The notes beneath the pieces were generated by a model. That model ran no database searches and was not told where the DNA came from. It saw only the letters and a list, made by a program, of their open reading frames with translations. Below are positions 30,549-33,825 of a stretch of 33,825 bases of DNA, piece after piece (position 1 is the stretch's first letter; every line of letters begins with the position of its first letter). The position numbers and the translations under genes were made by a program. The DNA comes from an uncultured Roseibacillus sp. (GTDB lineage: Bacteria > Verrucomicrobiota > Verrucomicrobiia > Verrucomicrobiales > Akkermansiaceae), in NCBI GenBank assembly GCA_937949965.1, contig CALFBF010000091.1:1-33825 (forward strand), given 5' to 3'.

Positions 30549-30646
30549 TCGCATGGTCGATTTTCTAATTGGCATTGCAAATTCAAGAAATTTTAAAGAA
30601 GCCTTAATATTACCAGCGTTCACGCCGCCTCCCGGTAACCTGTGCT

Positions 30647-30678
30647 TTCGAGAAGAAATGATTCCAAGTTTTCTCGAA
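30647..30678. promoter_or_regulatory. Inverted repeat TTCGAGAA-16-TTCTCGAA, candidate operator or hairpin
   Basis: A perfect 8-bp inverted repeat with a 16-nt spacer (half-site centres 24 bp apart) lies between the AraC gene and the operon. The stem may extend inward by two pairs with one wobble. It could be a regulator site or a hairpin behind the AraC gene (180 bp away). AraC-type proteins usually bind direct repeats, so assignment to this AraC protein is doubtful. Confidence 0.3.
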
Positions 30679-30859
30679 CCAACAAAGGATTGAAGTAATA
30701 GGTGTCCATTTTCATGGAATGAGGTTATCGCAAGCGTCCTTCAGTCAGAAGGTTTTTGAACTCTCTGGATTCCTTGTTTACGAGAGAAAGAAAAGTACTG
30801 AGAAGAGCTTATCCGCGGGGAAGTTTTTCTGCGAAATTTCCACCAAGATAGGAGTTCGC

Positions 30860-31780
30860 CTAATGCTCTTGTTTTCGGAATTCGGCTGCTGATTTACCGA
30901 TATGTTTTTTGAAGAGACGACTAAAGTGTGAGTAGTCGTTGAAGCCTACTTTGTAGCAGATTTCAGTAATATTACTTCCCGATTCCCTAAGGAGTTTGCA
31001 GGCGTTTTGGATTCGCAAATCGTTGAGATATTGCAGAAAAGTCATCCCAGTTTCGTGCTTGAAGAGCTGGCAGAAGTAAGTCGGTGAGGTGCCCGACATT
31101 GAAGCCATGTTTTTGAGCGTGAGAGTCTCGTCGGCGTGGTCGTGGATATAATTGAGCGTCTTCTGCAGCTTGGGTCGGAAGCGCGTTCTTGCTCCGGAAG
31201 TGTTAACTTGGATGTTTTCTCCGACTTGGCCAGAGGCAGTAAAATAGTCAGAGAGATAAGCGAGTAGACCTTGGAACTGGCAGCGTATTTGAGCGTTGGA
31301 GCTGGCATCAGAGTACTTGGAAAGCTCCCTGAGTTTTTCGAGGCGAGTAGTTACTTCCTCGCGCTCGGCTTCGGGAAGCTGTAGTTGGATGGCCGAGTTG
31401 TTCTCAGATGCGAGAGGCAGAAAGGGTTGAAAGAGGTGACGGTGCCCGGGGTTGGCATGCCCTGCTTCAGCCAAAGAACGAATGCTGGAATCAACCACTT
31501 CGGGGAGAAAACTACAACAATAGGCCAAAATGGGATTGTTCTGCTCCGTCGCCTCTAGGTAGTGCCGCACGTAAGGTTTCAGAATCAGGACATCGCCTGA
31601 TTTGAGTTCAATCTTATCGTTTACAAAGTGATTGAGTAGAGAACCGTCGGAAACGAATAGCAGTTCGAGATACTCATGCCGGTGCAGATTATTCTGAATT
31701 TGACGTCGCTCTGTCACTGAGTCGACCGTCATCGGAATGGCTCGATTGGCAAAGAGTTCGCGTGAAGTAACGAGAGACAT
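30860..31780 (-). CDS. AraC family transcriptional regulator
   Basis: This 306-aa protein has an N-terminal cupin-type sensor domain and a C-terminal AraC DNA-binding domain. The sensor region contains LHRHEYLELLFVSDGSLLNH (about 32-51) and DVLILKPYVRHYL (about 63-75). The DNA-binding domain spans about 205-303: the first helix-turn-helix is in TLKNMASMSGTSPTYFCQLF, and the second in ITEICYKVGFNDYSHFSRLFKK. The cupin probably binds a sugar. It lies on the same strand just upstream of the enolase-superfamily / ALDH / aldolase / kinase operon and most likely activates it (inference). Confidence 0.9.
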   Translation of the reverse strand: MSLVTSRELFANRAIPMTVDSVTERRQIQNNLHRHEYLELLFVSDGSLLNHFVNDKIELKSGDVLILKPYVRHYLEATEQNNPILAYCCSFLPEVVDSSIRSLAEAGHANPGHRHLFQPFLPLASENNSAIQLQLPEAEREEVTTRLEKLRELSKYSDASSNAQIRCQFQGLLAYLSDYFTASGQVGENIQVNTSGARTRFRPKLQKTLNYIHDHADETLTLKNMASMSGTSPTYFCQLFKHETGMTFLQYLNDLRIQNACKLLRESGSNITEICYKVGFNDYSHFSRLFKKHIGKSAAEFRKQEH

Positions 31781-32079
31781 AAGAGATTAAGTTCTTCAAT
31801 GTGCGCAAAAATGCCATCAGAAGGCAAGTGAAATTCTGCAATGAATGAATTCGTTGCTTTTTTCTCTTTTCTCAATAAGTTTTTTATTATCAAGGTTTAA
31901 GGTGAAATTATTATTATTCGAAAACAACAAAAGAGATTTCTTTTTGGGTCGTTAACCTTGCAGATTCTAAGCTGTGAGACTTAAAAGCTCTATTAATAGA
32001 GCATGAATTTTTCTCGGAAGCTTACGGAGAAAGGAGAGAGTATTCGAAGAATACAAAGAGAGTGAAATTGTTTCGAAAT
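31781..32079. other. Non-coding region between AraC and the attachment site
   Basis: About 300 bp, very AT-rich, with no coding frame. It should carry the AraC promoter. It contains a 16-bp perfect palindrome at 31987-32002 and a 6-3-6 inverted repeat GTATTC-GAA-GAATAC at 32040-32054. It is native chromosomal sequence that once lay directly downstream of an intact tRNA-Asn gene (inference). Confidence 0.4.
31987..32002. promoter_or_regulatory. 16-bp perfect palindrome GCTCTATTAATAGAGC
   Basis: A spacerless inverted repeat about 207 bp upstream of the AraC start and 78 bp from the tRNA fragment. On the plus strand a weak T-run follows. It could be an operator, a recombination-related site or the end of the former tRNA transcript; nothing decides between these. 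Confidence 0.3.
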
Positions 32080-32131
32080 TGGCTCCGGCGGTAGGATTCG
32101 AACCTACGACCTAGTGGTTAACAGCCACCCG
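32080..32131 (-). tRNA. 3' fragment of a tRNA-Asn(GTT) gene: attachment site of an integrated element
   Basis: Read on the minus strand, this is the last two thirds of a tRNA. The anticodon stem GGTGG / CCACT has loop CTGTTAA (anticodon GTT, Asn), followed by variable loop AGGTC. The T stem is GTAGG / CCTAC with loop TTCGAAT. The 3' acceptor strand CGCCGGA, discriminator G and encoded CCA complete it. The D arm and 5' acceptor strand that should lie at 32132-32155 are missing and replaced by unrelated AT-rich sequence. The fragment therefore cannot make a tRNA. It is what remains at the far end when a phage or island integrates into the 3' end of a tRNA gene, with the complete tRNA restored at the other end, outside this window. 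Confidence 0.85.
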
Positions 32132-32216
32132 ATTTAAATAATTATTGGAAAATAAAGACTTTGAGGCGGACTATGCTGAAAGTTATGCCAGAGCCGAAAA
32201 GACAGACAAGGGATAG

Positions 32217-32501
32217 CTAGTTAGCAATTGCGGCCATTGCCTCCGACCACGCCGCCTGCGCAGTTAAGGTCTTGGGGCCAGTCCAAAGGTAAGTCTTGAG
32301 GCTTAGCGAGTAAGTCAGGTGCTTAGGGTGGTCAGCAAGGTAAGATTGCAAATCTGCTGACGCTTGCGCGGAAGAGACCCCAAAGACATCCATCAAATCC
32401 CGCCGGCCAATACTGCCATGCTTGAGCGCGTAGCGCGGGATCCAGTCTCTACGGACCCGCGCAAACCACGTGTTACCAGAGCGATTACTCATGACCCACA
32501 A
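32217..32501 (-). CDS. Small winged-helix DNA-binding protein (WYL-regulator N-domain type)
   Basis: This 94-aa product lies in the element. WIPRYALKHGSIGRRDLMDVFGVSSAQASADLQSYL (about 20-55) reads as a helix-turn-helix. The phrase RRDLM..FGVS..QASADL..YL closely resembles the N-terminal winged helix of WYL-domain transcription factors, and a following LTYSLSLKTYLWTGP fits the wing. The WYL sensor domain is absent, so it is a stand-alone DNA-binding module. An ATG exists a few codons in (MSNRSGN); the first start may be the weaker one. It starts within the end of the gene at 32489-32761 (13-bp overlap), implying coupled expression. It may control element genes (inference). Confidence 0.6.
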   Translation of the reverse strand: MWVMSNRSGNTWFARVRRDWIPRYALKHGSIGRRDLMDVFGVSSAQASADLQSYLADHPKHLTYSLSLKTYLWTGPKTLTAQAAWSEAMAAIAN

Positions 32502-32761
32502 GCCTCCCAGGCTAAAATCTCTGCCTCCTCCTCACGCAAGCCGTCAATAGATCGCATGTCCTCACTTGGGGCCAAAGCCTCAACAATCCTCGCTTGGAGC
32601 TTGTGCCACGGGACGGCAGGCAGACTCACGACCCGAGCCGCTAGGCTTAACCTTTCTTGCGCTCGCCCGTTTGCTTGTCCAGCCCAGTAAGCAGCTTGGA
32701 CCGCTTTTTGCTCTGCACTCAAATCCGCGCTTTCCATTTCGATAATTTCTTTGATTTTCAT
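32489..32761 (-). CDS. Small element protein, unknown function
   Basis: From ATG 32761 the product is about 90 aa: MKIKEIIEMESADLSAEQKAV, then a helical Ala/Arg/Glu-rich body and an end EEEAEILAWEACGS. The length and predicted helices give no family. A further upstream start exists at 32788 but would place the coding start inside a GC-rich hairpin; ATG 32761 is preferred. The end overlaps the winged-helix gene by 13 bp. It could be a small phage-type accessory protein (inference only). Confidence 0.5.
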   Translation of the reverse strand: MKIKEIIEMESADLSAEQKAVQAAYWAGQANGRAQERLSLAARVVSLPAVPWHKLQARIVEALAPSEDMRSIDGLREEEAEILAWEACGS

Positions 32762-32777
32762 TTTTTTAAAAGGTTGA

Positions 32778-32797
32778 GGGAGGGGCAACCCCCTCCC
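32778..32797 (-). terminator. GC-rich hairpin between element genes
   Basis: The 8-bp perfect stem GGGAGGGG / CCCCTCCC (32778-32785 with 32790-32797) has a 4-nt loop and lies between the stop of the gene at 32811 and the ATG at 32761. On the minus strand it is followed by TCAACCTTTT, a weak T-run. It could be an attenuating terminator or an mRNA stabiliser. Confidence 0.5.
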
Positions 32798-32810
32798 ATG
32801 CTAGCAATAA

Positions 32811-33083
32811 TTAAGCACTAAATAGCGCGTCAAAATCGACCTCCTCAAGATCGGAGACCGAATCTCTAAATGCGTCAGTCTGAGTGCCTCGCCCCTCGGT
32901 GATAACAAGCTTGTTAGCTACGCAATCGTAATAAGCCTTAGTTGTCTTGCATCCGCGAAAAGTAACGTCGTAACCCACCAAGTTAAGGTAGACTCTAACT
33001 AAAGATTCTGACTTCTCCCAGATTGATGCAGAGTCAACCATTGGCAGAGTGAGGAGAGCTGTTTGGATTTCGGTAGTAGTCAT
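32811..33083 (-). CDS. Small element protein, unknown function
   Basis: From ATG 33083 the product is 90 aa: MTTTEIQTALLTLPMVDSAS, a mixed region with VRVYLNLVGYDVTFRGCKTTKAYYD (about 29-53), and an acidic tail SDLEEVDFDALFSA. The acidic C-terminus is reminiscent of small phage proteins that interact with host or DNA-mimic partners, but this is speculation. No family is recognised. An in-frame start at 33140 would add 19 residues over a leader hairpin; ATG 33083 is preferred. Its leader contains AACCTTAAAAAA, similar to the leader of the next gene. Confidence 0.5.
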   Translation of the reverse strand: MTTTEIQTALLTLPMVDSASIWEKSESLVRVYLNLVGYDVTFRGCKTTKAYYDCVANKLVITEGRGTQTDAFRDSVSDLEEVDFDALFSA

Positions 33084-33142
33084 AATGTTTGTCTTTTTTA
33101 AGGTTAAGCGGTCCGTCCCGCTGATGTTTAAAAGATACACTT

Positions 33143-33177
33143 AAAAAGTGAGAACGCAATATTTATTTTCACTTTTT
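33143..33177. terminator. AT-rich inverted repeat AAAAAGTGA / TCACTTTTT
   Basis: A perfect 9-bp inverted repeat (33143-33151 with 33169-33177) lies 65 bp downstream of the gene at 33243-33578. T-runs on both strands make a two-way terminator possible. A second, overlapping repeat CACTT-AAA-AAGTG lies at 33138-33150, so an operator is also possible. Confidence 0.45.
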
Positions 33178-33242
33178 TTGTGAGTTTTTTTCGTGCTATT
33201 TAAATGACGCCGGAAATCCTCTAATTACTATCCCTCTAGTAA

Positions 33243-33578
33243 TTACCCCGACAGCCTCTCAGCTATCGCCCAAGCGGTTTTGACCGTCATTGCGGCGTGG
33301 CCGCTTTGCAGGTTTTGAATTCGCCCATGGGCGAAACCTAACGCCTCCGCCGCTTTGGCCGCGTTGCCGCCAAGCTGCGAAACTATAAGCTTCATCACTT
33401 CTTTTTGCGTTTCTGGAGGCATAGTTTTGATGACGGCCGCTTGAAAGTTGACCCAGCGACCGGACGGCATAAAGCACACAAGCGATCCTCCCGGACCTCC
33501 CGCCAGCGGGATAGCCCCCGCCGGGAGAGGGAAGGCCCCGGCGGTAAATGTGTGGTAGTTTTCTAGTTTGGTGATCAT
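33243..33578 (-). CDS. Small element protein with HTH-like C-terminus
   Basis: This 111-aa product starts at ATG 33578. The N-terminal half is Gly/Pro-rich and unusual (FPLPAGAIPLAGGPGG, about 16-31), followed by SLVCFMPSGRWVNFQAAV. The C-terminal half, VSQLGGNAAKAAEALGFAHG then LQSGHAAMTVKTAWAIAERL (about 67-109), reads like a Cro/transposon-type helix-turn-helix, suggesting DNA binding. It follows the gene at 33583 by 4 nt, so the two are co-transcribed. The family is unknown; a regulatory role is inference. Confidence 0.55.
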   Translation of the reverse strand: MITKLENYHTFTAGAFPLPAGAIPLAGGPGGSLVCFMPSGRWVNFQAAVIKTMPPETQKEVMKLIVSQLGGNAAKAAEALGFAHGRIQNLQSGHAAMTVKTAWAIAERLSG

Positions 33579-33582
33579 TGTT

Positions 33583-33807
33583 TTATTTTAATTCGAATTC
33601 TTCTCCATTTGAGCGAAAAGCGAGGCCGACAAGAAGAGGGTGAGTCGCAAGAAAGCCCTGCTCCATCACAGAGTCAACACCCCTCGCTCCGGCTTCGGAG
33701 TAGTAAAAGTGAGGGAAGATCTCTATGGCCTCCCGAGAAGGGTTGGCCGCAAGCACGATGACCGCTTCAGGGCCTAAGTCGTTAAGCTCTTTAAGGTCCC
33801 TTATCAT
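33583..33807 (-). CDS. Small element protein, unknown function
   Basis: This 74-aa product starts at ATG 33807 near the window edge. It contains AVIVLAANPSREAIEIFPHFYYSEAG (about 15-40) and ends NGEEFELK. It is 4 nt upstream of the 111-aa gene, in an operon-like arrangement. I recognise no family. A gene upstream in the same transcript probably lies beyond the edge. Confidence 0.5.
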   Translation of the reverse strand: MIRDLKELNDLGPEAVIVLAANPSREAIEIFPHFYYSEAGARGVDSVMEQGFLATHPLLVGLAFRSNGEEFELK

Positions 33808-33825
33808 TTGCGGGGCCTTAGCTCG

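Follow-up and report, generated by a model that had tools for sequence, protein, structure and literature searches.

A tRNA-Asn fragment in a Roseibacillus contig as the probable attR of an element integrated in tRNA-Asn(GTT)

The sublocation of integration sites within tRNA genes is reportedly treated by Williams (2002). As described in an excerpt of the Islander paper (PMC4383910), tDNA islands carry the complete tDNA at one end, the displaced 3′ fragment at the other end, and a tyrosine integrase inside. In the table of the same excerpt, anticodon-centred sites are one of two site classes and account for 2083 of the 3919 islands. For Klebsiella pneumoniae, the portion consulted of a second paper (PMC4891358) describes how different islands have repeatedly integrated at tRNA-Asn(GUU) genes. 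Our literature search on Akkermansia, prophage, integrase, and tRNA-Asn found no report combining all these.

Here, we analyzed a stretch of 33,825 bases (the window), which is the whole contig C91 of an uncultured Roseibacillus sp.; the genome consists of 166 contigs (2.73 Mb, 90.6% complete). Window 32075-32131 very probably represents the attR left by a mobile element that inserted in tRNA-Asn(GTT), and the other end (attL) likely lies on contig C120. The arrangement is ordinary, of a common and well-understood kind, and its mechanism has long been known.

The tRNA-Asn fragment and its complete counterpart

The following features define the fragment and its surroundings:

30860..31780, minus strand: AraC-family regulator (HTH_18 E 2.2e-25, AraC_binding E 1.4e-6), the first chromosomal gene beyond the putative attR.
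32075..32131, minus strand: putative attR core, an exact 57-bp repeat of C120:26608-26664 (tRNA 3′ part plus 5 nt).
32080..32131, minus strand: 3′ part of tRNA-Asn(GTT), identical to bases 24-75 of the C120 tRNA-Asn; Rfam tRNA 29.9 bits.
32132..33825: presumed element side, about 1.7 kb to the contig end, with small genes without a Pfam match above the cut-off.

Read on the minus strand, positions 32131 to 32080 are the 3′ 52 nt of tRNA-Asn(GTT) and comprise the last D-stem base, the anticodon arm, the variable loop, the T arm, the acceptor 3′ strand, and CCA; no 5′ part is present. The tRNA identity breaks off at 32132, and the break was placed by eye at tRNA base 24, the last D-stem base. 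ARAGORN called no tRNA in the window. The Rfam tRNA model matches at 32146..32091 (minus strand) with a score just above its cut-off of 29 bits (E 0.0012). As only model positions 10-63 of 71 are covered, both acceptor strands are outside this match, whose D-arm part aligns with unrelated sequence. The first-pass annotation had described a 3′ part of tRNA-Asn(GTT) that lacks the 5′ part and breaks near the D-stem/anticodon-stem junction, and this description holds, with no mismatch to the C120 tRNA-Asn over the 52 nt. It gave no strand, and its core of about 51 nt was close but short, as the actual tRNA part has 52 nt and the exact repeat 57 bp.

Searching the own genome with the fragment gave three matches at E ≤ 0.001: the window itself, the complete tRNA-Asn on C120, and, weakly, a tRNA-Lys gene. 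The complete gene at C120:26585-26659 is the sole complete copy found in the genome. The complete tRNA-Asn predicted from the window, identical in its 3′ part, is located on another contig of the same genome in the right order and orientation. The exact direct repeat pairs the reverse complement of the window core with C120:26608-26664; BLAST lengthens it to 62 bp at 98% (C120:26608-26669). A match as long as this one does not arise by chance. A displaced 3′ tDNA fragment repeats the complete tDNA and, provided that one element is bounded by C120 and C91, order and strand are correct.

The complete tRNA-Asn of C120 is identical in the same-genus genomes G001 and G002, and the 52-nt tRNA identity therefore cannot tie C91 to C120. 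Past the CCA, the first 5 nt of the window and C120 are identical and 9 of 10 nt agree. This is modest support only because relatives, compared with the window by eye, also agree in 5 of 10 (G001), 4 of 10 (G002 and G003 each), and 7 of 10 nt (G021). On the element side, C91 ends about 1.7 kb and C120 about 0.8 kb from the core. We found no overlapping or bridging contig between them in the own assembly.

The integrase and the presumed element side of the window

Directly after the C120 tRNA-Asn lies an integrase frame (L002 1634-2365, 244 aa) that is open at the contig end. It matches Phage_int_SAM_5, a SAM-like core-binding domain (E 8.7e-10), and phrog_1, the integrase of PHROGs (E 1.1e-12). 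We read these first 244 residues as the N-terminal and core-binding part only, with the catalytic part (PF00589) beyond the contig end. By its Pfam domain and its phrog_1 match behind the complete tRNA, it is an integrase gene inside the element, and the tyrosine integrase expected from the window to adjoin the complete tRNA-Asn was thus found on C120. At E ≤ 0.1, Phage_integrase has 10 matches in the own genome, 8 of them above the cut-off; judged by position, none begins at a contig edge, where a continuation of this frame should. No relatives were found in phages or plasmids at E ≤ 1e-5, nor in genome_contigs and viral_contigs, where short exact peptide patterns limit the reach to close relatives. 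Between the tRNA-Asn and the integrase gene, folding gave a hairpin followed by a T-run (−13.8 kcal/mol, z −3.24). A scan for terminators downstream of the C120 tRNA returned nothing; the hairpin loop of 15 nt exceeds the length allowed by the scan. It thus seems that the element provides the tRNA with a new terminator in addition to the new 3′ part.

We searched 386 genomes drawn from the order, the own genome included, with the C120 integrase at a threshold of E ≤ 1e-10, and 5 genomes gave matches, the own among them. The nearest relative (34%) is from another genus, G252, where a full-length frame of 396 aa directly follows tRNA-Asn on the same strand. The relative in G184 follows tRNA-Ala on the same strand, and that in G332 has a tRNA-Met nearby on the opposite strand; for G084, no tRNA was present on the stretch fetched. 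A genome-wide search of G252 found no second tRNA-Asn fragment, and a relaxed search covering 120 kb of the 127-kb contig found none either; hence, the G252 element has decayed or ends differently.

In the proposed mechanism, the element would carry in its attP a duplicate of the tRNA 3′ part; the tyrosine integrase would recombine this attP with the tRNA-Asn gene of the chromosome, and the crossover would take place around the anticodon arm. The new 3′ part brought by the element would restore the tRNA at attL (C120:26585-26664), and the original 3′ part would be displaced to the far end of the element, where it would be seen as the window fragment. The integrase gene would lie at attL behind the restored tRNA and the terminator-like hairpin. 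The remaining element would be located between the right ends of C120 and the window, on sequence not found in the assembly. We infer that both contigs bound one element, and likewise the crossover place, the mobility, and the prophage nature. Order, orientation, and crossover place fit a textbook anticodon-type attR. The first-pass annotation had taken the fragment as the end of an integrated element with an integrase and a complete tRNA at the other end; C120 supports this view, with the two contigs joined by deduction.

On the element side, five small frames on the minus strand were taken as genes, and none of the five exceeds the Pfam cut-off:

32217..32501, minus strand: ORF of 94 aa; sub-threshold matches to Pfam DUF7503 (E 0.056) and phrog_6627 (E 0.22).
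32489..32788, minus strand: ORF of 99 aa; no Pfam match at E ≤ 1, best PHROG E 0.066.
32811..33140, minus strand: ORF of at most 109 aa; sub-threshold matches to Pfam Barstar (18.1 bits, cut-off 23.4) and phrog_16984 (E 0.011).
33243..33578, minus strand: ORF of 111 aa, probable HTH protein (phage repressor-like); phrog_2328 E 0.039, HTH_3 below the cut-off.
33583..33825, minus strand: C-terminal 80 aa of an ORF whose 5′ end is lost at the contig end; no Pfam match at E ≤ 1.

The change of gene style at the fragment that the first reading had pointed out is real in size and content, though the G+C content is level. With 0.503 on both sides of the fragment, a G+C shift gives no support for the element.

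The protein encoded by 33243-33578 has a 45% relative in one other of the 386 genomes (G024:C40), and this relative scores phrog_2328, a phage-type HTH regulator, at E 8.8e-5. Judged from these similarities, 33243-33578 probably encodes an HTH protein. G024:C40 also encodes a phage-type single-strand-binding protein (phrog_4932, E 2.8e-26). The HTH protein is the only one of the five window proteins to match this contig (E 6e-33; next best 0.66), the genes preceding the two HTH genes show no similarity, and no tRNA-Asn fragment was found on G024:C40. In viral_contigs, a 27-base piece near the window end is absent, and no relative of the 32811-33140 protein was found.

Of the element, the assembly includes only about 1.7 kb on C91 and 0.8 kb on C120, in which an integrase and a probable HTH protein were recognized. 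That the element is a prophage or phage-derived is our guess, because the phage hints are weak: the HTH relative lies on G024:C40, a contig without a tRNA-Asn fragment. Tentatively, and with considerable doubt, the element might belong to an undescribed Akkermansiaceae prophage family, which would use, in more than one genus (C120, G252), a common integrase with its site at the tRNA-Asn anticodon and would carry otherwise unrecognized early genes.

The tRNA-Asn locus in relatives and alternative explanations

In the same-genus genome G003, tRNA-Asn holds a different 7.7-kb element with an integrase and a 3′ tRNA fragment (G003:C33, L062 4985-12754). The integrase has 430 aa and its gene runs into the tRNA; the 3′ tRNA fragment is 7.7 kb off, and the repeat spans about 31 bp, with its start in the variable loop immediately ahead of the T arm. 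A G2P-like replication protein is encoded, and five further proteins have no PHROGs match at E ≤ 0.01. The element looks complete and is possibly a small phage or plasmid-like element. Like the C91/C120 element, it uses the same tRNA gene and leaves a 3′ fragment at the far end; it differs in its integrase, its repeat, and the G2P-like protein, and at E ≤ 1e-3 the G003 element stretch has no match to the C120 integrase or to any of the five window proteins. Hence, at least two kinds of integrase use the tRNA-Asn gene, at different places within it. Together, C120, G003, and G252 make the tRNA-Asn gene look like an entry point common to different elements in the genus and family.

There is a small chance that the fragment and the C120 integrase come from two different elements, in tandem or successive at the same tRNA-Asn, in which case the window would show a remnant or the distal end of an array. 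The two integrase kinds at tRNA-Asn in the genus (C120, G003) would agree with this, as would an element middle absent from the assembly and the G252 integrase relative, which sits at tRNA-Asn without a detectable attR. However, the assembled genome yields one fragment and one complete tRNA-Asn only. We prefer integration of a single element, a reading which rests on the single fragment and the single complete gene, the well-placed integrase, and outer flanks that are chromosomal at both ends.

On the window side, the genes left of the core encode NAD-dependent DNA ligase (ligA), an SMC/RecN-like protein, PriA (priA), and a PLP decarboxylase. A sugar-acid operon with the AraC regulator lies by the core (mandelate racemase-like protein, aldehyde dehydrogenase, KDPG aldolase, PfkB kinase). 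Window 15930-31800 matches parts of all three same-genus genomes (G001-G003) with 65-80% identity, the best matches being over the priA and decarboxylase genes; thus, contig C91 belongs in the genome. These matches argue against a mis-binned or chimeric window contig with a fragment from another genome. Such an error would be eased by the fragmented assembly and by a tRNA-Asn 3′ part that is at least 95% identical in several genera, and we consider it improbable, even more so than two elements.

A dispersed repeat occupies window 30627-30763, in the interval from the mandelate racemase-like gene to the AraC gene. Among the own-genome matches listed, 35 of 37 fall on it (72-88% identity, many contigs; 40 of 69 candidates scored). 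Four copies were aligned, no tandem array was found at 30627-30763, and the repeat is possibly a MITE- or REP-like element. On G000:C46, at about 2140-2909 (L013, L014), an integrase domain is in two pieces (2140-2340 and 2649-2909), and matches of the dispersed repeat (2346-2413 and 2455-2503) lie between them, which suggests that the repeat moves.

On C120, the chromosomal gene pfkB precedes the tRNA-Asn on its outer side. The same neighbor is found in G001 (93% protein identity) and G002 (91%) as well as on a contig of Roseibacillus ishigakijimensis, and it is absent beside tRNA-Asn in G003 and G021. Among 80 named loci with a related pfkB, one (L102) has tRNA-Asn on the fetched stretch and none has a relative of the C120 integrase. 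G001 and G002, with tRNA-Asn beside pfkB, likewise have no such relative. The genes that follow this tRNA-Asn are a restriction-type helicase in G001 and a histidine kinase and SecA in G002, the order differing between relatives. An empty site carrying the window AraC gene was not found; a search of 5 relatives at E ≤ 1e-30 gave no match to this gene. The G001 helicase gene (G001:C10, L060 13665-17204) is large, with ResIII, EcoEI_R_C, and HSDR_N, lies directly downstream of tRNA-Asn in place of the genes seen in the window, and may mark a defence island at this tRNA. In G024:C25 (L095 1-78), the contig stops 3 nt past the 3′ end of tRNA-Asn, the pattern expected of an assembly break at an attachment-site repeat.

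It is highly improbable that the fragment is a pseudogene or a partly duplicated tRNA with no relation to a mobile element: repeated tRNA-Asn copies do occur in some relatives, e.g., G040 with two matches starting 178 bp apart, but a 3′ fragment with CCA, an integrase by the complete gene, and the right orientation are the known integration signature, as given in the excerpt of PMC4383910.

Comparison with known systems

Under integration into tRNA-Asn, the reading that we prefer, one mobile-element end is located with single-base precision in a group that has been little studied, and an element split between contigs is recognizable from its tRNA fragment. Unlike the Islander islands as they appear in the excerpt of PMC4383910, the C91/C120 element has an interior missing from the assembly and is known here from its two ends only. 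With these islands, it shares the complete tDNA, the displaced 3′ fragment, the tyrosine integrase, and the anticodon-centred site. Whereas the portion consulted of PMC4891358 gives four identical tRNA-Asn copies for K. pneumoniae and one was found here, the C91/C120 element resembles the asn-tDNA islands of that species in having tRNA-Asn as the integration site.
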